This document shows, piece after piece, positions 31,138-56,550 of a stretch of 57,349 nt of DNA. The DNA is from Muribaculum sp. (GTDB lineage: Bacteria > Bacteroidota > Bacteroidia > Bacteroidales > Muribaculaceae), in NCBI GenBank assembly GCA_023666965.1, contig JAMPAZ010000001.1:315405-372753 (forward strand). The letters are read 5' to 3'. Under the pieces are notes generated by a model, which saw nothing but the letters and a program-made list of their open reading frames with translations, did not search any database and had not been told where the DNA came from. The position numbers and the translations under genes are program-made. Within the stretch, counting starts at the first letter, position 1. Each line of letters opens with the position of its first letter.

Positions 31138-31883
31138 AACGAAAGATTTTACCCCCCCCGTTTATTTAATACCCTGATAATCAGAGAGTTTTTTATAGCG
31201 GACTTTCATGCCGATGCCATCAATGCTAAATTCGGAACTCTCGAGACTAATTCAGGTACTACTAACGAGAATAAGCCTTATAAGGTGACATTCTCCGTTG
31301 CAAACAAGTACGCTTTGACCCTGCTCGGACATGACAATGTTTCTGTAAGCAATATGGGCGACCATGCGTTGATGGTCAATGGTGCGTCTTGGAATACTCG
31401 CGTAGGTGAATACGAAAATACCGTACTCTATGCCAACGATGCTGAACTTGCCACTATCGATCTTGAAACCGGCGTAATCACTCTTGCTGAGGACAAAAAC
31501 GCCTACGAACTTCTCAACCTGTTCGCTTCTACAGGTGACGGTATGAACCGTACTAACGCTCTTCTTGAAGCAAAGATCGGTATCGTCGCATATAGCGAAT
31601 GCTGGGTGCATCGAAACTCTCAATATTTGACGAGGCATACGGGAAATTGGCTCCTTTAGACAATGAATCAAAGTCGAATCTGCATAAGCGTGCTGAGATT
31701 TTTCCGGTGCTTGAATATTTGATGAAAGGGATGCGCTTGAATATGCCTGATGATGGACTTTTAAGTTATGAAGTTACTTTTGCTAAGGCTTCCGAGGGCA
31801 AGGATGCGCCTACTGTAGTTATGGCATTTGTGCCGGTATTTGCCGACGGCGAGTGGCATATTGTGGTTAAGCAGCGCTATTGA
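31138..31883 (+). pseudogene. Broken gene remnants of unknown family, with an upstream C8 tract
   Basis: Two open stretches lie in different frames. The first, open from 31138 to about 31610, reads as a secreted or surface-protein-like segment (for example VTFSVANKYALTLLG and TIDLETGVITLAED). It has no start codon at a sensible place except an internal ATG at 31285. The second, 31599-31883, begins MLGASKLSIFDEAYGK and ends EWHIVVKQRY. One frameshift near 31600 would join them; otherwise they are pieces of two genes. I do not recognise either family. A run of eight C at 31152-31159 precedes the first piece. Confidence 0.55.
31152..31159 (+). repeat. Homopolymer C8 tract
   Basis: Eight cytosines lie upstream of a broken reading frame. 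A GTG-started frame from 31064 runs into the tract and stops soon after. One extra C would carry it into the frame of the downstream remnant. Confidence 0.7.
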
Positions 31884-49205: not shown

Positions 49206-50503
49206 CTGTCGTTTACTGGAGCCTTGTAGCGTGGAAATCTGAATATAATTGAAAGTGCCACCATTATGGCCAGCATCCACGGATAATATAGGTATGGCCA
49301 AGGAGCTACAGGCGAGATTCCGGCCAACGACGTAGCCAACAGGGTCTGTGCTCCGTAGGGGATTATGCTCTGAACTATGCACGAGCAACTATCGAGAATG
49401 GATGCCGATTTGCGCGGATCGATTCCGTAGCGCCGCGAAATGTCGCGCGACAGCGAGCCTACGGTGATGATTGCGACCGTGTTGTTGGCCGTGCACAAGT
49501 TTACGATGCTTACCAGCAGGGCGATTGCGCACTGCGCTCCGCGTTTGCCCTTGATTCGGGCGGTCAGCACTTGAAGGATGTATTGGATGCCTCCCGCCGC
49601 TTTAATCAGTCCGAGCATTCCCGCCGCCAGAAGGGTTATTATGACCAGATTGCCTACTGAGTCGATGCCTTCGCCCATGAAGCCAAACAGCGTTATCGCG
49701 TCATAACCGAGCCATATACCAAGGGCAAAGGCCACTATGATACCGATTGCAAGAACTACGGTGACGTTGACTCCTGCCAGGGCGGTGACTATTATTGTCA
49801 GGTAGGGCATGATGAGCCATGAATTGCTCTCGCCCAAAGCCTCGGGATTCGGGGCATGGCTTCCCAGCACAGCATATAGGAAGAGTGACCCGACCGCCGC
49901 AGGAAGCGCTATCCAAAGGTTTGCCTTAAACTTATCGTTCATCCGGCACCCTTGCGTGCGGGTTGCGGCTATTGTCGTGTCTGAGATAAACGACAGGTTG
50001 TCGCCGAAGAATGCGCCACCGATCACCACTGCCACGAAGAAGGCTACTGACTCGCTCTCCGACGCGGCAAGTTGCACGGCCAACGGGGTGAGCGCAACGA
50101 CGGTACCCACAGATGTTCCGATGGAGAGGGAAATGAAGCAAGCCGCCAGAAACAGCCCGGGAATGAGCATCTCCGCCGGGAGCCAACGCAGAGCCAAGTT
50201 GACCGTGGCCTCCACCGAGCCGGTGGCTTTGGCAAGTGCCGCAAAGGCTCCGGCGAGGATGAATATCCACACCATATACATTACGTTCGACGAGCCTGCG
50301 TCGCGCGAAAACACTTCTACGCGTTTCGACAGGGGGGTGCCGCGCATGATGGCCACAGCCCATGCCGAAGCCACCAACAGCGCCACGGCTATCGGCATCT
50401 TGTAGAAGTCGCCGATTATGATCGAGACGGCTAAGTAAAATACCAGAAAAACGACTATCGGAGATATGGCCACAAGACCCCTCCGCCATGTTATAGCTGA
50501 CAT
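49184..50503 (-). CDS. NhaC-family Na+/H+ antiporter
   Basis: This 439-residue protein has about 11 membrane helices. Conserved patterns of the NhaC type include CFISLSIGTSVGTVVALTPLA, FFGDNLSFISDTTIAATRTQGC and NLCTANNTVAIITVG. Members exchange sodium for protons, or organic solutes such as malate and lactate. It has a clear promoter and its 3' end overlaps the EFR1 gene tail by 22 bases. Confidence 0.92.
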   Translation of the reverse strand: MSAITWRRGLVAISPIVVFLVFYLAVSIIIGDFYKMPIAVALLVASAWAVAIMRGTPLSKRVEVFSRDAGSSNVMYMVWIFILAGAFAALAKATGSVEATVNLALRWLPAEMLIPGLFLAACFISLSIGTSVGTVVALTPLAVQLAASESESVAFFVAVVIGGAFFGDNLSFISDTTIAATRTQGCRMNDKFKANLWIALPAAVGSLFLYAVLGSHAPNPEALGESNSWLIMPYLTIIVTALAGVNVTVVLAIGIIVAFALGIWLGYDAITLFGFMGEGIDSVGNLVIITLLAAGMLGLIKAAGGIQYILQVLTARIKGKRGAQCAIALLVSIVNLCTANNTVAIITVGSLSRDISRRYGIDPRKSASILDSCSCIVQSIIPYGAQTLLATSLAGISPVAPWPYLYYPWMLAIMVALSIIFRFPRYKAPVNDSQKSGQK

Positions 50504-50510
50504 ATCGGTG

Positions 50511-50542
50511 CAAAGTTACGACAACGATATTAAAACGCCAAA
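50511..50542 (-). promoter_or_regulatory. Bacteroidota promoter for the NhaC gene
   Basis: On the minus strand TTTG (50542-50539), 20 bases, then TAACTTTG (50518-50511), which ends 8 bases before the ATG. The leader would be very short. Confidence 0.7.
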
Positions 50543-50630
50543 CACGTATCAGACAAATCGATGTCGGCAAAATTTAACTTTTATTCACAGTGCTGTACCA
50601 AAAAATATTTCAAGAATTTTTGACCAAATT

Positions 50631-50661
50631 ATTGGACGTTTCAATCTAATCGCTAATTTTG
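50631..50661 (+). promoter_or_regulatory. Bacteroidota promoter of the fimbrial operon
   Basis: ATTG (50631-50634), exactly 19 bases, then TAATTTTG (50654-50661), 69 bases before the ATG at 50731. I see no flanking inverted repeats of the kind that mark invertible promoters. Confidence 0.62.
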
Positions 50662-50677
50662 CGAACAAGATTTAGTG

Positions 50678-50699
50678 AATGATTGGTTAATCAATCATT
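50678..50699. promoter_or_regulatory. Palindrome in the fimbrial operon leader
   Basis: AATGATTG-GTTAAT-CAATCATT is a perfect 8-bp inverted repeat about 10-30 bases after the predicted transcription start. It may be a repressor operator or an mRNA hairpin. Confidence 0.45.
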
Positions 50700-50730
50700 T
50701 GTTTTAGTTGATTTTAATTGTGCGATATAC

Positions 50731-51586
50731 ATGAAAAAGAGATTTGGCATACTCATACTGTTTTGTCTCCTTGTCGCCGTGGCGACGGAGGCATTGGCGG
50801 TTAGTCCCGGTGCCGTTTCTTCTTGTTTCAGTATCCCGACATCCCGCGACGATGCGCAAATTGACTACGGCTATGCGTTGAGAATTTATAAGCCGGCTGT
50901 GGTTAATTTGTCTCAACTGTCAGATAGTCAGCTGATTACCCCCCCCCTATTTGTTAGGGGCATGTTCTGGCGTTAAAGGCAGGTGCCGTTGCGGCAAAGG
51001 TTGCCGTTGCTTCCTGTCGTCCGCGGATTCGGACACGGTAGGGACTTCCAATACCTTAATCTTAGGACTTAAGACCAACCTGCTCTACGACGCGTTGCTC
51101 GTCCCCAATGTCGGAGTCGAGTTCAATCTCGGCCGGGGGTGGAGCGTGGGTGCCGCGGGCTTGTTCGCTTGGTGGAGCGACCGCGGGCGCAATCGGTTTG
51201 AGCGCGTCTATGGGGGCGAGGTCGAGGTGCGCCGTTATTTTGGCAACCGGGCTTCGCGCTGTCCGTTGTCGGGCCATCACGCAGGAGTGTACGCACAAAT
51301 GCTCACTTACGACCTCGAGTGGGGCGGCCCGGGCTACATGTCGGATCTCTCCTACGGTGCCGGCGTGAGCTACGGATATTCCCTGCCGATAGGCCGTCGC
51401 CTGAACCTGGACTTCACGCTCGGAGTGGGATACTTCGGCGGAAAATATAAGAAATATAAGCCCTCTGACGGGCACTACGTCTGGGAAGCCACCCGCAAGC
51501 GCAACTGGTGGGGGCCGACCAAGCTCGAAGTTTCGCTCGTGTGGACAATAGGAGCGTCCGGAAAGAAAGGAGGGTGCCATGAATAA
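50731..51586 (+). CDS. DUF3575 fimbria-associated protein, split by a C9 tract (putatively phase-variable)
   Basis: The first part, from ATG 50731, is a clear export signal (MKKRFGILILFCLLVAVATEALA) plus about 50 residues, and stops at 50976. The second part, in the next frame, is a DUF3575 domain (LGLKTNLLYDALLVPNVGVEFNLG, YGGEVEVRRYFGN) without its own signal or sensible start, ending 51586. The frames meet at nine C (50939-50947). With eight or eleven C the gene would be one frame; with eight C it encodes 284 residues. DUF3575 proteins commonly accompany Bacteroidales fimbrillin genes. As given, the gene is OFF, unless ribosomes or polymerase slip on the tract. The stop overlaps the next start. 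Confidence 0.8.
50939..50947 (+). repeat. Homopolymer C9 tract inside the DUF3575 gene
   Basis: Nine consecutive cytosines lie exactly where the signal-peptide frame must change to reach the DUF3575 frame. Such a run is prone to slipped-strand length change during replication. Confidence 0.95.
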
Positions 51587-52547
51587 ACTGTTGATTGTGT
51601 TCATCAGGAGCACGTTGCTCCTGTCGGTTCTCGGCATGTTTCCGGCATGTTCCCACAAGGAATTGTGCTACGACCACTCCCACACAGTGAGTCTGCGCGT
51701 GAACTTTGACTGGAGCAATGCCCCTGATGCGCGACCCGAGTCGATGTCGGTCTATCTGTTCCCGGTAGACGGGGGAAAGCCCGAACGCTATGAAATCACC
51801 GACTATACCGGCGGCACCATCGTGGTTCCGAAAGGCCGGTTCCATATAATCACGTTCAACAGCGACACTAAGAACATCGTGCGCCGTAACATCGGGGACA
51901 TCAATACCTTCGAGCTTACCACCGACGAGACGTCGCTGCTGTCGGGCCTGTCCACGATGAGCCTGACGACCGGCAACGTACCCCGCGCCGACGGATCGGG
52001 CGACTGCCGCGTGGTGGCGAATCCTGAGCTGTTGTGGTCAACGCGTGTGTCCGACATCGTATTTTCCGACGACGCCTCCGGACACGACCTGTCGCTCGCT
52101 CCGGAGCAGATAGTCGACGTGGTAACGGTCAACATCGCCAATATCGAAAACGTCGAGCACGTACGCGACATGAGCGCGACAATATACGACATGGCAGGAG
52201 GATTTTATCCGGCAAGCCGGCGCCTGACCACGGAGCGGGTAATCATCCCCATCGCCTTGACGGTAAATAAGGACGACGCAACAGCCACCGGAACGTTCCG
52301 CACTTTCGGCCACTGCCCCGAGGAGACGGGAAGCCATCAGATGTATATCTACGCCATAATGGACGACGGCTCAAAGTGGTACTACACATACGACTTGACC
52401 GACAGCGTGCACAATGCCGACGACGGTTCGGAATCGTGGAATTTTGAGATAGACGGACTGGATTTGCCCGAACCGAATCCGGGCGAGGGCGGACTGACGC
52501 CGACAGTCGAAGAATGGGAGAATGTTGAAATAACAATAGATATGTAA
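51579..52547 (+). CDS. FimB/Mfa2-family fimbrial anchor lipoprotein (DUF5119-like)
   Basis: This 322-residue protein has a lipoprotein signal (lipobox MFPACS, Cys near residue 24). A sandwich of transthyretin-like domains of the FimB/Mfa2 type follows: VSLRVNFDWSNAPDARPESMSVYLFP and GRFHIITFNSDTKN. Such proteins cap and anchor the fimbria in the outer membrane and control its length in Porphyromonas. The ATG lies inside the last codons of the DUF3575 gene, so translation should be coupled to it and suffer when that frame is broken. It ends in an acidic Pro-rich segment. The DNA here is GC-rich compared with the tip gene. Confidence 0.85.
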   Translation: MNKLLIVFIRSTLLLSVLGMFPACSHKELCYDHSHTVSLRVNFDWSNAPDARPESMSVYLFPVDGGKPERYEITDYTGGTIVVPKGRFHIITFNSDTKNIVRRNIGDINTFELTTDETSLLSGLSTMSLTTGNVPRADGSGDCRVVANPELLWSTRVSDIVFSDDASGHDLSLAPEQIVDVVTVNIANIENVEHVRDMSATIYDMAGGFYPASRRLTTERVIIPIALTVNKDDATATGTFRTFGHCPEETGSHQMYIYAIMDDGSKWYYTYDLTDSVHNADDGSESWNFEIDGLDLPEPNPGEGGLTPTVEEWENVEITIDM

Positions 52548-52584: not shown

Positions 52585-53742
52585 ATGAAAAAGAATTTGT
52601 TGATTCTTGCGACTGCAGCTCTGGCAATGACTGCATGTTCAAATGACGAGACCCTCGAGGTCAACCGTGGCAACTCCATCGCGTTCCGCTCAGCCGTTGA
52701 CTCCCGCGCAACCGAGATGACTACGCCGGGACTCCAAAAATTCTATGTGTCGGCTATTTCCAACGGGTTGACTTTTATGGATAATGTCCTCTTTGAGAAG
52801 AAAGACGGTAGTGTTTTTAAGTCCACGCCCGAATATAACTGGCCTAGTGGCAAGGTTAACTTTTATGCCTATTCTCCATCGTTAGCGGAACTTGGGCTTA
52901 CGGCGGAAACTAATGTGGCAATCAGCGCAGAAGAAGCGAAGTTCAAGGCCTTCTCTCCGAATGTTAACATCGCAAATCAAGCCGACTTCATCACCGCCAA
53001 GGCCTTAGAGCAGGAAGAGAAGAAAAGCGACGACAATACTGAAAGCGTAGAACTCACATTTAACCACAACCTGGCCCAAATCGAGATTAAGGCCAAGACC
53101 GACAATGAAAATTACATTTATAAGATTCTTGGAGTAAAAATAGCTAAGGTAAAATCAAAAGGTACTTTTAACTTCACTAATGGCGAGTGGTCGGATCTCG
53201 CGTTTAAAGGTACAGATGAAAGTATAAATGTCGACAGCTACATTATATATTTCGGTACAACTGAAGACGATGCTGTTGAGCTAACTCCCAAGGCATCTGA
53301 AGCAACTTCCCTGATGACAGCAACTTCCGGAAATGCGATGCTTCTTCCCCAGCAATTGGCTGCTTGGGATGGCACAGAGAGCAAAGAAGGCTCCTACCTT
53401 GCAATACTTGTAAACATCACTACCAAGAGTGGCGGTCAAATCTATCCTGCAACAGAGGGTAAGTATAACTGGATGGCAGTTGGTATTGGCGAAAATTGGC
53501 AAGCAGGCAAACATTATTGCTATACTCTTGACTTGACCAACGGTGCCGGAACCGTGCCTCCCGAACGTCCCGGTGACTTGGATCCAACAGATGTAGACCC
53601 CACAGATCCGGGCAAAGACCCTGAAGTTGACCCCATTGACCCCGACAAGGATCCCTTCAAGCCAGGTCAGGAACTCCTCGGCGGCCCCATCACCTTCACC
53701 GCCACTGTTAGCCCCTGGACTAGTGGCAGTACGACTCTGTAA
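52585..53742 (+). CDS. Fimbrillin-family major subunit lipoprotein
   Basis: This 385-residue protein has a lipoprotein signal (MTACS, Cys18). Then comes the fimbrillin pattern: DSRATE (Arg in the place cleaved by Arg-specific proteases in Porphyromonas fimbrillins), YNWPSGKVNFYAYSP, and VELTFNHNLAQIEIKAK. A linker of repeated Asp-Pro-Thr/Glu-Val units (about residues 330-365) precedes a final strand, TFTATVSPWTSG, a typical donor-strand-like end. Its position after the anchor and before a hairpin fits the main shaft subunit, expressed above the tip protein. Confidence 0.85.
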   Translation: MKKNLLILATAALAMTACSNDETLEVNRGNSIAFRSAVDSRATEMTTPGLQKFYVSAISNGLTFMDNVLFEKKDGSVFKSTPEYNWPSGKVNFYAYSPSLAELGLTAETNVAISAEEAKFKAFSPNVNIANQADFITAKALEQEEKKSDDNTESVELTFNHNLAQIEIKAKTDNENYIYKILGVKIAKVKSKGTFNFTNGEWSDLAFKGTDESINVDSYIIYFGTTEDDAVELTPKASEATSLMTATSGNAMLLPQQLAAWDGTESKEGSYLAILVNITTKSGGQIYPATEGKYNWMAVGIGENWQAGKHYCYTLDLTNGAGTVPPERPGDLDPTDVDPTDPGKDPEVDPIDPDKDPFKPGQELLGGPITFTATVSPWTSGSTTL

Positions 53743-53850: not shown

Positions 53851-56550
53851 ATGCTTAATACCATTCCCAAAAATATTACTTGGCGTGCTTTAATCCTGCT
53901 ATTAGTGGGTGTAATATCTATTCTTGTTGTAAGTTGTGAGGACGATTGGGATGATAAAACAGCCGATACTAATGGCGAGATTGCGTTCACTGTGACAGAC
54001 GCGGATGATTGGCAAAGCCGCGCAGATGAGGACGAAAGAAATTCTGACGATCCTGTTTGGGGTAGGTATATTAGGACGGAAACGATTGGTGTGGCTGATA
54101 GCGGGGATACGATATATGCCCATATTTATGAAAAAGAGGGAATTGATTTAGGAGTTGATGAAGACGCTGAGGATTCAGACAGTATCCCGGTTTCACGAGC
54201 CACATTACTTGGCGGAATATCCTCAATCAGTAAATTTTATGTGAAAGCTGCATATTATCTTGACAAATGGACTGAAAATCAAACCATGAACCTAATGGAT
54301 GACGAGCCTTTCTCCAAGGATTCCAAGGGAGTATGGCGTCCCTCAACAAACTATCTGTGGCCGGGCGGTCCGTATAAAACCCGGTTCTTCGCATACTATC
54401 CTAAGCCTGACGGCTCCAATTATTTCACCATATCTGATGGAGTCGGTACTCCGATATTGCACTATGAAACATTTGAACACGAAAGTGGGACTGCTAACCC
54501 TACGTATGGAACAGATATCGTAGTGGCTACGACAGGCGATATTACGGGTGTGCCCCAAAAAACTCCCGCTTTGCAATTTAAACATATACTTTCTGCCGTG
54601 AAATTTGTGATTAGTGAGACCGCTTTTCCCGGGAAAATCTATAGTCTCGGCTTTAAAGATATATATACCAAAGGAGACTATAATATGTCGAGTGGGAAAT
54701 GGACTTATTCAGGGAGTATGCATTCGTTAGGATGGTCACCAAATAAAACCATAGATCCGGCTAAAGATGGAAATACCCAGTTAATTTCGACATCGCTAAT
54801 TATTCCGCAAGAAGGTACTAGTACCGGTTTCTCGTTTAGTTATAAATCTGATTTTTCGAGTGGGGTTAGTTCGGGATTCGCTGGTTATAGATTTACGGCG
54901 GGAGTTACAACGACTTTTCTGATTAGTTTGGAGGAAAGTATTGCACCGACTTTGTCTGTTGAATGCTCTACAGGTAGCTTTGATTTTGGACAGGAAGGAA
55001 CTGGCGGTTCTGCTACAATTCAAATAAAAAGTTCTGCTGTTATTGGTGGAAAGACGTATGCATACGACTATTGTAATTGGGAATTTTTGAAAAAATTGGA
55101 CAATGGGACTTACACAACCGTATCTGCGCCGGAATGGCTTAATTTTTCAACTCCAACCAAGACAACAACCTCGACAGACGTTGTTTTAACATCTCAGATT
55201 AATGTTGCAGCCGTAACCGCGACTACGACAGAAGATATATATACATCGACATTAAAAGGAATGGATCAAGTTGGGTCAGAAGGAGACTATGAATCGTTAT
55301 GCAAGAATAGTAGTTCTGCAAATTGCTATATGGTCAGTGCCCCCGGATACTACAAATTTCCGATTGTGTATGGTAATTCTATTGATAAAGACGGAAATCC
55401 GAAAGTCTACTCATATAAGGGTAGTAATAGGAGTTTGAGTTTTAAAAATTATAAGGATGACGCTATAGGGATGCCCTGGATTGATGATGACACAGGAGAA
55501 ACTCCCGGCAGTGCTAAAGTCGTGTGGCAGGATGCTCCGAATTTAGTTACTGATGTCAGATATAACTCTACCACAAGATATATAGAATTTGTGGTAGATA
55601 GAGACAATATAACGACCGGTAATGCGGTTATTGCCCTTTGTGATTCTAATGGCGAAATCATGTGGAGCTGGCATATATGGGTCAATGCCTACGAATATAT
55701 CCCCGATTCTCCCTTTACAGCCGAGTATAACGATGGTGCCAGTACAATTTTGAATTACTATCTTGGTGAATGTCCAGGCGATGAATTTGTTGATGAATAT
55801 GCAGAAGAGAATAGCACGGTATTGCATATCTGGCAAACTCATCCAAATAAGAAAAAAATAATAAATGAGAAATATATAACAATAAGCCGGGATGTCGGAA
55901 CCCGAGACTACAATTACTATGGCAGTTGCCCTTCTTACCAGTGGGGAAGAAAGGATCCAATGATTCCAATTACCAATAGTAATGGAGTATGGCAAAATAA
56001 AAAGATATATACGGATTACAGCGGTGTTGGTGTCATGCAAAATGCTGCTGTAACAATTGCAAATTCAATTAAAAATCCGCATGTGCCTTATGCTGATTCT
56101 GGATTGAGCTGGGGTACGGATTTATTGTACTATTTGTGGGATGGAGGGAATTATGGTATAATAAGCAAAACTGTTTATGATCCATGTCCTCCCGGATTTT
56201 GTGTCCCTCGATCTGAGGATTTGTGGTTCGGAGATTATATAATTATGCCTATACCCGTGCCTGGGGGTGGGTTTACAGTTCGTTTGAGCTATGGAGATTC
56301 GGATTATTGGGTTGACGTGCCAACTTTGACTTTTAATTATTTCCCATCTCGATTATCTGATTTTTCAGTACCACCATACGGAGATGATAATCTCTCGATT
56401 GACCTTTGGACTAACGGACAGTGGGGATGGACTTATGAACATGCTTATTTTGATATGAACGAAATTAATTACGTTATTGAGGATAAGTATGATGGAGAAA
56501 ACGCCAGAACTTATCTGATTCGTCCTATTGTTGCCCCATACGGAGATTAA
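53851..56550 (+). CDS. Large fimbrillin-like tip protein (lipoprotein)
   Basis: This 899-residue protein has a lipoprotein signal (ILVVSC, Cys near residue 29). An N-terminal fimbrillin-like half has SRATLLGGISSISKFYVKAAYY, NYLWPGGPYKTRFFAYYP and ALQFKHILSAVKFVI. The C-terminal half of about 450 residues is rich in Tyr/Trp/Gly/Asp, with YDPCPPGFCVPRSEDLW, a pattern of Bacteroidota tip adhesins. The two halves suggest a donor-strand-ready base plus a binding domain; the ligand is unknown. The gene is AT-rich relative to the anchor gene and closes the operon. Confidence 0.8.
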   Translation: MLNTIPKNITWRALILLLVGVISILVVSCEDDWDDKTADTNGEIAFTVTDADDWQSRADEDERNSDDPVWGRYIRTETIGVADSGDTIYAHIYEKEGIDLGVDEDAEDSDSIPVSRATLLGGISSISKFYVKAAYYLDKWTENQTMNLMDDEPFSKDSKGVWRPSTNYLWPGGPYKTRFFAYYPKPDGSNYFTISDGVGTPILHYETFEHESGTANPTYGTDIVVATTGDITGVPQKTPALQFKHILSAVKFVISETAFPGKIYSLGFKDIYTKGDYNMSSGKWTYSGSMHSLGWSPNKTIDPAKDGNTQLISTSLIIPQEGTSTGFSFSYKSDFSSGVSSGFAGYRFTAGVTTTFLISLEESIAPTLSVECSTGSFDFGQEGTGGSATIQIKSSAVIGGKTYAYDYCNWEFLKKLDNGTYTTVSAPEWLNFSTPTKTTTSTDVVLTSQINVAAVTATTTEDIYTSTLKGMDQVGSEGDYESLCKNSSSANCYMVSAPGYYKFPIVYGNSIDKDGNPKVYSYKGSNRSLSFKNYKDDAIGMPWIDDDTGETPGSAKVVWQDAPNLVTDVRYNSTTRYIEFVVDRDNITTGNAVIALCDSNGEIMWSWHIWVNAYEYIPDSPFTAEYNDGASTILNYYLGECPGDEFVDEYAEENSTVLHIWQTHPNKKKIINEKYITISRDVGTRDYNYYGSCPSYQWGRKDPMIPITNSNGVWQNKKIYTDYSGVGVMQNAAVTIANSIKNPHVPYADSGLSWGTDLLYYLWDGGNYGIISKTVYDPCPPGFCVPRSEDLWFGDYIIMPIPVPGGGFTVRLSYGDSDYWVDVPTLTFNYFPSRLSDFSVPPYGDDNLSIDLWTNGQWGWTYEHAYFDMNEINYVIEDKYDGENARTYLIRPIVAPYGD

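Follow-up and report, generated by a model that had tools for sequence, protein, structure and literature searches.

A putative poly-C phase switch in the first gene of a fimbrillin-type operon of Muribaculum, within a candidate genus-wide set of poly-C/G contingency loci

Two open reading frames at the start of a fimbrillin-type operon of Muribaculum sp. meet, out of register, at a run of nine cytosines. Is this run a switch that slips between an ON and an OFF length, the scar of a decaying gene, a site where the ribosome or the polymerase shifts register, or an error of assembly? An earlier note, made from the letters of the window (the whole stretch of 57,349 nt analyzed here), had proposed a poly-C phase switch. 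The signal-peptide frame, the N-terminal part of the first gene (50731-50976, plus strand), runs for 81 codons from the ATG at 50731 to the stop at 50976; its product of 81 aa begins MKKRFGILILFCLLVAVATEALA, with a signal peptide called by eye, and has no Pfam match. The DUF3575 frame (~50936-51586, plus strand) is stop-free from ~50936 to 51586, is open for 216 aa and matches PF12099 with 129.9 bits (cut-off 21.1, E 8.3e-38), the domain match covering ~51062-51550. The sole start in this frame is a TTG at 50951, with no signal peptide recognized by eye. Between these two parts, which are otherwise open, lies the C9 tract (50939-50947, plus strand; 5' flank ATTA), the putative slippage switch. 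Reading of the sequence together with the PF12099 match bears out the claim that the two frames meet at this tract, and the accompanying frame arithmetic was correct on rechecking.

The placement at the head of a fimbrial operon is likewise confirmed by the Pfam matches of the downstream genes. The first of these (51579-52547, plus strand) shares its first 8 nt with the DUF3575 frame and encodes a DUF5119 protein (PF17145, 164 bits) with a weak Mfa2-like match that falls below its cut-off (PF08842, 18.8 bits against 21.2). It is followed, on the same strand, by genes for a fimbrillin-like protein (52585-53742; Mfa_like_1, PF13149, 84.7 bits) and a large fimbrillin-like protein (53851-56550; Mfa_like_1, PF13149, 61.9 bits), so that an Mfa/Fim-type set of DUF5119 and two Mfa_like_1 genes stands behind the first gene. 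A search of the four operon proteins of the window against NCBIfam returned 0 families. The neighborhood recurs in other genomes, where DUF3575 genes adjoin DUF5119 relatives (e.g., in G113, G130, G057, G136, G049, G016, G005, G004 and G011). Upstream, a sequence scan located the -7 promoter box TAATTTTG at 50654-50661 on the plus strand, which fits the consensus TAnnTTTG given for this box in a passage of PMC7366714. It lies 69 nt upstream of the ATG at 50731 and is the sole such box on the plus strand of 50401-51700, which supports this ATG as the first start of the operon; transcription therefore most likely enters the signal frame first.

Codon usage favors the signal frame 5' of the tract and the DUF3575 frame within the domain. 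The 110-nt linker immediately 3' of the tract is ambiguous (codon score -0.247 in the DUF3575 frame vs -0.260 in the signal frame), and the N-terminal part of the gene has no relative among the loci examined; both observations count against reading this locus as a switch. Neither part of the split gene carries a further lesion. Inversion of a promoter at this locus was considered and rejected: the inverted repeats found there are weak, the best pairs spanning 19 nt (74% complementary) and 13 nt (85%).

The tract stands where chance would seldom place it. The host genome (2.4 Mb, 66 contigs, 83% complete) contains seven C9 and six C8 runs, and two of the C9 tracts fall in the 5' part of two of the five Pfam-matched DUF3575 genes (Poisson P ~7e-6 for 5 x 250 bp). 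A census of both strands of 457,349 bases, comprising 20 stretches and the window, yielded 5585, 1171, 201, 30, 5, 3 and 4 C runs of 3 to 9 bases, respectively, so that C8 and C9 exceed what the roughly five- to sevenfold drop per added base would leave. In the same census, TTA precedes six of the seven C8-9 runs, as against none of the 30 C6 and none of the five C7 runs. By this excess and this flank, a C9 in the 5' part of the gene is beyond chance expectation. Elsewhere in the window, at 31152-31159, a C8 run with the same TTTTA flank is followed by GTTTATTTAATACC and lies ~190 nt 3' of an open reading frame that, read by eye, resembles a tyrosine recombinase.

A second one of the five DUF3575 genes of the host genome is split at another C9 and is followed by three DUF6562 genes. 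Its counterpart in the sister species G012 was located through a neighboring gene (77% identity); in the junction region, G012 has MTIEKFSTISLILCAGIAHSIDMQA and the host genome MSIERFSAIASITLLSISQSADIQA. In both genes, the tract lies 79 nt past the ATG, but it is a C9 in the host gene and a C8 in the counterpart, and the remainder of the gene is out of register in opposite directions in the two. G012 retains a 26-codon signal peptide with no indels up to the tract, and differences from the host gene in the signal region are distributed over the codon positions as 10/7/15. Codon statistics switch frame at the tract in both genes. This second operon is a cleaner case than the locus at 50939-50947. 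Both tract-split DUF3575 genes of the host genome are in the OFF register, which counts against a switch.

DUF3575 relatives were found in at least 119 of the 149 genomes of the host's family. An open frame exceeding 400 aa is present at 23 of the 30 loci with the highest scores; these long proteins begin with a signal peptide, followed by a part that we take to be OmpA-like from an ASPEG-like motif, then a linker and DUF3575. Only three of these 30 loci contain a C/G run of at least 7 inside the gene, a point against the switch, and three more have such a run just upstream. Comparing the DUF3575 homologues across the junction, as the earlier note had suggested, favors a poly-C switch: an out-of-register junction at a C run is present in four other DUF3575 genes, namely, the second host copy, its G012 counterpart, G136 (C7) and G049 (C10). 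In-frame runs occur in the homologues of G016 (C8), G005 (G8), and G011 and G004 (both G7); G136 and G049 belong to two other genera and G016 to a third. In one relative, L069, a stop codon interrupts the gene in the absence of any tract, which speaks against the switch and for decay. In the 18 genomes with complete TTAC8 lists, TTAC8 lies no more than 500 bp upstream of the domain in nine of the 33 DUF3575 genes (0.038 expected), taking the strongest DUF3575 relatives among the matches listed and including the two host genes that prompted the test. Among the iron-regulated genes given in a section of PMC10434189 are those for DUF3575 proteins of B. thetaiotaomicron.

The pattern extends well beyond DUF3575. 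Within the genus, 97 tracts of C8 or longer were read in context, comprising all those listed for G000 (13), G002 (16), G003 (6) and G004 (13), most of those of G005 and some from nine other genomes; three DUF3575 loci from the protein search, one of them a C7, complete a set of 100. Classed by hand, 35 of the 100 tracts are coding and 65 are not, so the idea that these are purely intergenic motifs was rejected. TTA flanks 55 of the 100 on the 5' side, coding and non-coding tracts alike, and individual genomes carry several C8+ loci. Eleven of the 35 coding tracts split their gene and 24 are in frame. The splits include four DUF3575 genes (the two of the host, G136 and G049) and a SusC-like gene, L150, with half of CarbopepD_reg_2 before the tract and Plug after it, out of register; its homologue L155 has a tract at the same position in frame. 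Further splits affect an acyltransferase_3 (L146), a hexapeptide transferase (L147), a Core-2/I-branching transferase (L180), a C5-methylase (L181), a weakly barrel-like protein (L168) and a prophage gene without a Pfam match (L188; G005:C36, 972-1876, plus strand), which is split at a G8 and has a second run, a G7, further on. IMG/VR contains one relative of L188, IMGVR_UViG_2883843030_000005, identical over 3008 bases and probably from the same genome, and a pattern scan of viral contigs gave 0 matches.

In-frame tracts are carried by a C5-methylase of the host genome (L031), a BspA-type LRR protein (L034), a PD40 protein (L003), HsdS (L148), two transferases (L157 and L171), a Reg_prop protein (L145) and two UDP-sugar dehydrogenases (L144, identified by Pfam, and L191, by likeness); some of the 24 may be coincidental. 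The 24 also include the UpxY-family antiterminator L197 (G007:C36, 1248-1820, minus strand; NF033644), with an in-frame G9 at codon 103 that may switch a polysaccharide locus, and MutL L186 (G005:C35, 754-2637, minus strand; TIGR00585, 486 bits), with an in-frame G10 at codon 375 that may switch mismatch repair. Context reading and Pfam thus place tracts in genes for SusC, acyl- and glycosyltransferases, HsdS, C5-methylases, UpxY and MutL. Outside the set of 100, tandem acyltransferase_3 genes at L205 (G020:C11:210900-216500) carry C9, C9 and C10 near their starts, the first two tracts being in frame and the C10 having no in-frame ATG before it, and an acyltransferase of G034 appears to be split at a G9.

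Homologous tracts could be compared between species in seven pairs among the 100, of which five differ in length, one of them (L077/L085) on the basis of 53 bp. Between G007 and G008, two tracts differ by one base within flanks that are 98.4 and 99.7% identical. Three 3-kb pairs, selected because each member has C8+ runs, were aligned and scored with substituted runs skipped: all three C8+ tracts differ, compared with none of 33 C/G runs of 4-6 and three of 68 A/T runs of 4-6, two of these three at larger gaps. Tract length thus changes faster than the flanking sequence, a result that pertains to comparisons between species and to loci other than the one at 50939-50947. Comparison of the promoter tract L178 with G007, made to find its orthologue there, yielded a breakpoint at the tract rather than a difference in length. 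Identity between G008 and G007 at L214/L215 ends exactly at the G tract of a promoter, and the other side is found ~27 kb away in G007, in the opposite orientation.

Many of the non-coding tracts appear to sit next to promoters. With four close orthologues removed from the 65 tracts of this class, a TAnnTTTG box starts 10-34 nt past the tract in 24 of 58 cases on the G strand, against two of 61 on the C strand; mononucleotide shuffles gave a mean of 0.83 and a maximum of 4. The 10-34 nt interval was picked after the tract contexts had been viewed, and the test is therefore not a blind one. Many tracts of this class precede SusC-like or signal-peptide genes, judging by eye and without a count. 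The distances from tract to box gather near 12-13, 16-21, 28-33 and 43-44 nt, a spacing of clusters that perhaps corresponds to one helical turn. TTAC8 occurs on average 5.19 times per genome across the 149 genomes of the host's family, where the reversed control pattern averages 1.81; the corresponding means for 195 genomes from other families within the order are 0.99 and 0.47.

We propose that the C9 at 50939-50947 acts as a slipped-strand contingency tract within the gene that opens the fimbrillin-type operon and that it belongs to a genus-wide set of such loci, a reading to which we give a probability of about 0.7. In the assembled C9 state, translation would start at the ATG of the signal peptide, cross the tract in the wrong register and stop 29 nt past it; given this early stop, the DUF3575 protein, probably an outer-membrane barrel, would either stay unexported or not be made (OFF). 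Gain or loss of cytosines during replication could bring the two parts into register (ON). Given the overlap of the DUF3575 frame with the start of the following gene, the OFF state may also have a polar effect that reduces expression farther down the operon. Slippage in living cells, its reversibility, the polarity and any effect on fimbriae are what we infer from the arrangement. The phase switch put forward in the earlier note is thus supported by the split of the frame, its recurrence and the length differences between species, and the data point to a set of loci beyond the one that the note described.

The same junction could arise if the gene were decaying in this lineage, the C run being merely the site of an accidental indel from which there is no switching back. 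No ON copy of this gene is present among the sequences examined, the linker is ambiguous in codon usage, the N-terminal part lacks a relative among the loci examined, and L069 is a relative broken without a tract. Decay would leave unexplained, however, why neither part bears another lesion, why C runs also split four other DUF3575 genes while in-frame relatives bear runs of similar length, why the G012 signal peptide has been kept free of indels though out of register, and why long C runs are in excess and share a common flank. We therefore consider a fixed frameshift unlikely.

The two remaining explanations leave the gene functional with its DNA unchanged or simply misread. C runs can be slip-prone, and a run stands at the junction in both split genes of the host, as would be expected if programmed ribosomal frameshifting or transcriptional slippage yielded some full-length protein. 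The shift needed, however, is +1 in the two host genes, L112 and L168 but one backward in L057, L150, L146, L147, L180, L181 and L188, so that its direction is mixed; moreover, homologues with an in-frame tract exist, and the promoter-class tracts have no coding role. RNA structure that might aid frameshifting was rejected, the sequence 3' of the C9 having a z of -0.58, with 53 of 200 shuffles folding at least as well. Such recoding is accordingly quite improbable. Slightly less probable still is an error of assembly or consensus in an intact gene: homopolymers are error-prone in sequencing and assembly, and the host assembly consists of 66 contigs at 83% completeness, but splits occur at C/G runs of 7 to 11 in several genomes while equally long runs elsewhere are in frame, and an error would not account for the C8-9 excess, the TTA flank or the promoter positions. 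If such an error stemmed from mixed reads, the mixture would in itself point to variation.

Slippage at the tract thus remains the preferred reading, and the other loci suggest a set of poly-C/G contingency loci that would be genus-wide and probably family-wide, of two kinds: translational, with the tract inside the gene, often near its 5' end, and transcriptional, with the tract just upstream of the -7 box. A bolder version, for which we see even odds, is a family-wide poly-C/G phasome of some ten or more loci per genome, in which one cassette, TTA followed by 8 to 12 C, would act as a frame switch when placed in the 5' part of genes for fimbriae, receptors, polysaccharides or restriction-modification and as a spacer when placed beside the -7 box of outer-membrane protein promoters. 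With the UpxY capsule antiterminator and MutL among its targets, such a phasome might even adjust the rate at which it mutates. In gut Bacteroidales, DNA inversion has been the main reading of phase variation, and pipelines that find inversions would miss one-base changes in a homopolymer. If the tracts do switch, the state of fimbriae, TonB receptors, DNA methylation and polysaccharide modification in a large family of gut commensals would depend on slippage; existing metagenomes could then be used to read switch states, and genes of this family called as pseudogenes at C runs would have to be reconsidered.

The putative switching described here would be a contingency system known in kind and apparently new for Bacteroidales; among open-licence papers in PubMed Central, no report of homopolymer phase variation in this order was found at the level of titles. 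In the poly-C fimbrial promoters of Bordetella, a C/G run lies beside the core promoter and its length sets the spacing. The promoter-class tracts are similar in that the C/G run adjoins the core promoter of surface genes. Here, however, this class mostly belongs to other genes, the tract of the fimbrial operon in the window being internal to its first gene. The contingency loci of Helicobacter, Campylobacter and Neisseria are similar in that C/G runs of 8-11 break the frame at the run and lie in or before surface, glycan and restriction-modification genes; in H. pylori, a G9 tract truncates a methylase (excerpt of PMC12003011), and cgtB of C. jejuni has 8 or 9 G (excerpt of PMC6437147). The present candidate loci differ in belonging to another phylum and in the TTA 5' flank of 55 of 100 tracts. 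Bacteroides phase variation by inversion is described in a portion of PMC11868660, and the invertible promoters and shufflons of Bacteroidales resemble the present set in their kinds of target, with phase variation there affecting capsule, SusC/D and restriction-modification genes, but act through site-specific recombination between inverted repeats, which are only weak at the C9 locus. In the acetyltransferase region of B. fragilis 638R, a frameshift lies in a run of four C, and slippage is suggested by the authors as one way in which polysaccharides might come to vary (partial text of PMC3090145); unlike the tracts analyzed here, that case is one short run between two strains, with no series of long tracts. 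DUF3575 (PF12099) relatives of ~430 aa carry an OmpA-like part, recognized as a motif by eye, which is absent from the gene in the window. Finally, the locus resembles Mfa/Fim-type fimbrial operons in combining DUF3575, DUF5119 and Mfa_like_1 genes in one operon, and it departs from them in that its first gene is split by a homopolymer.
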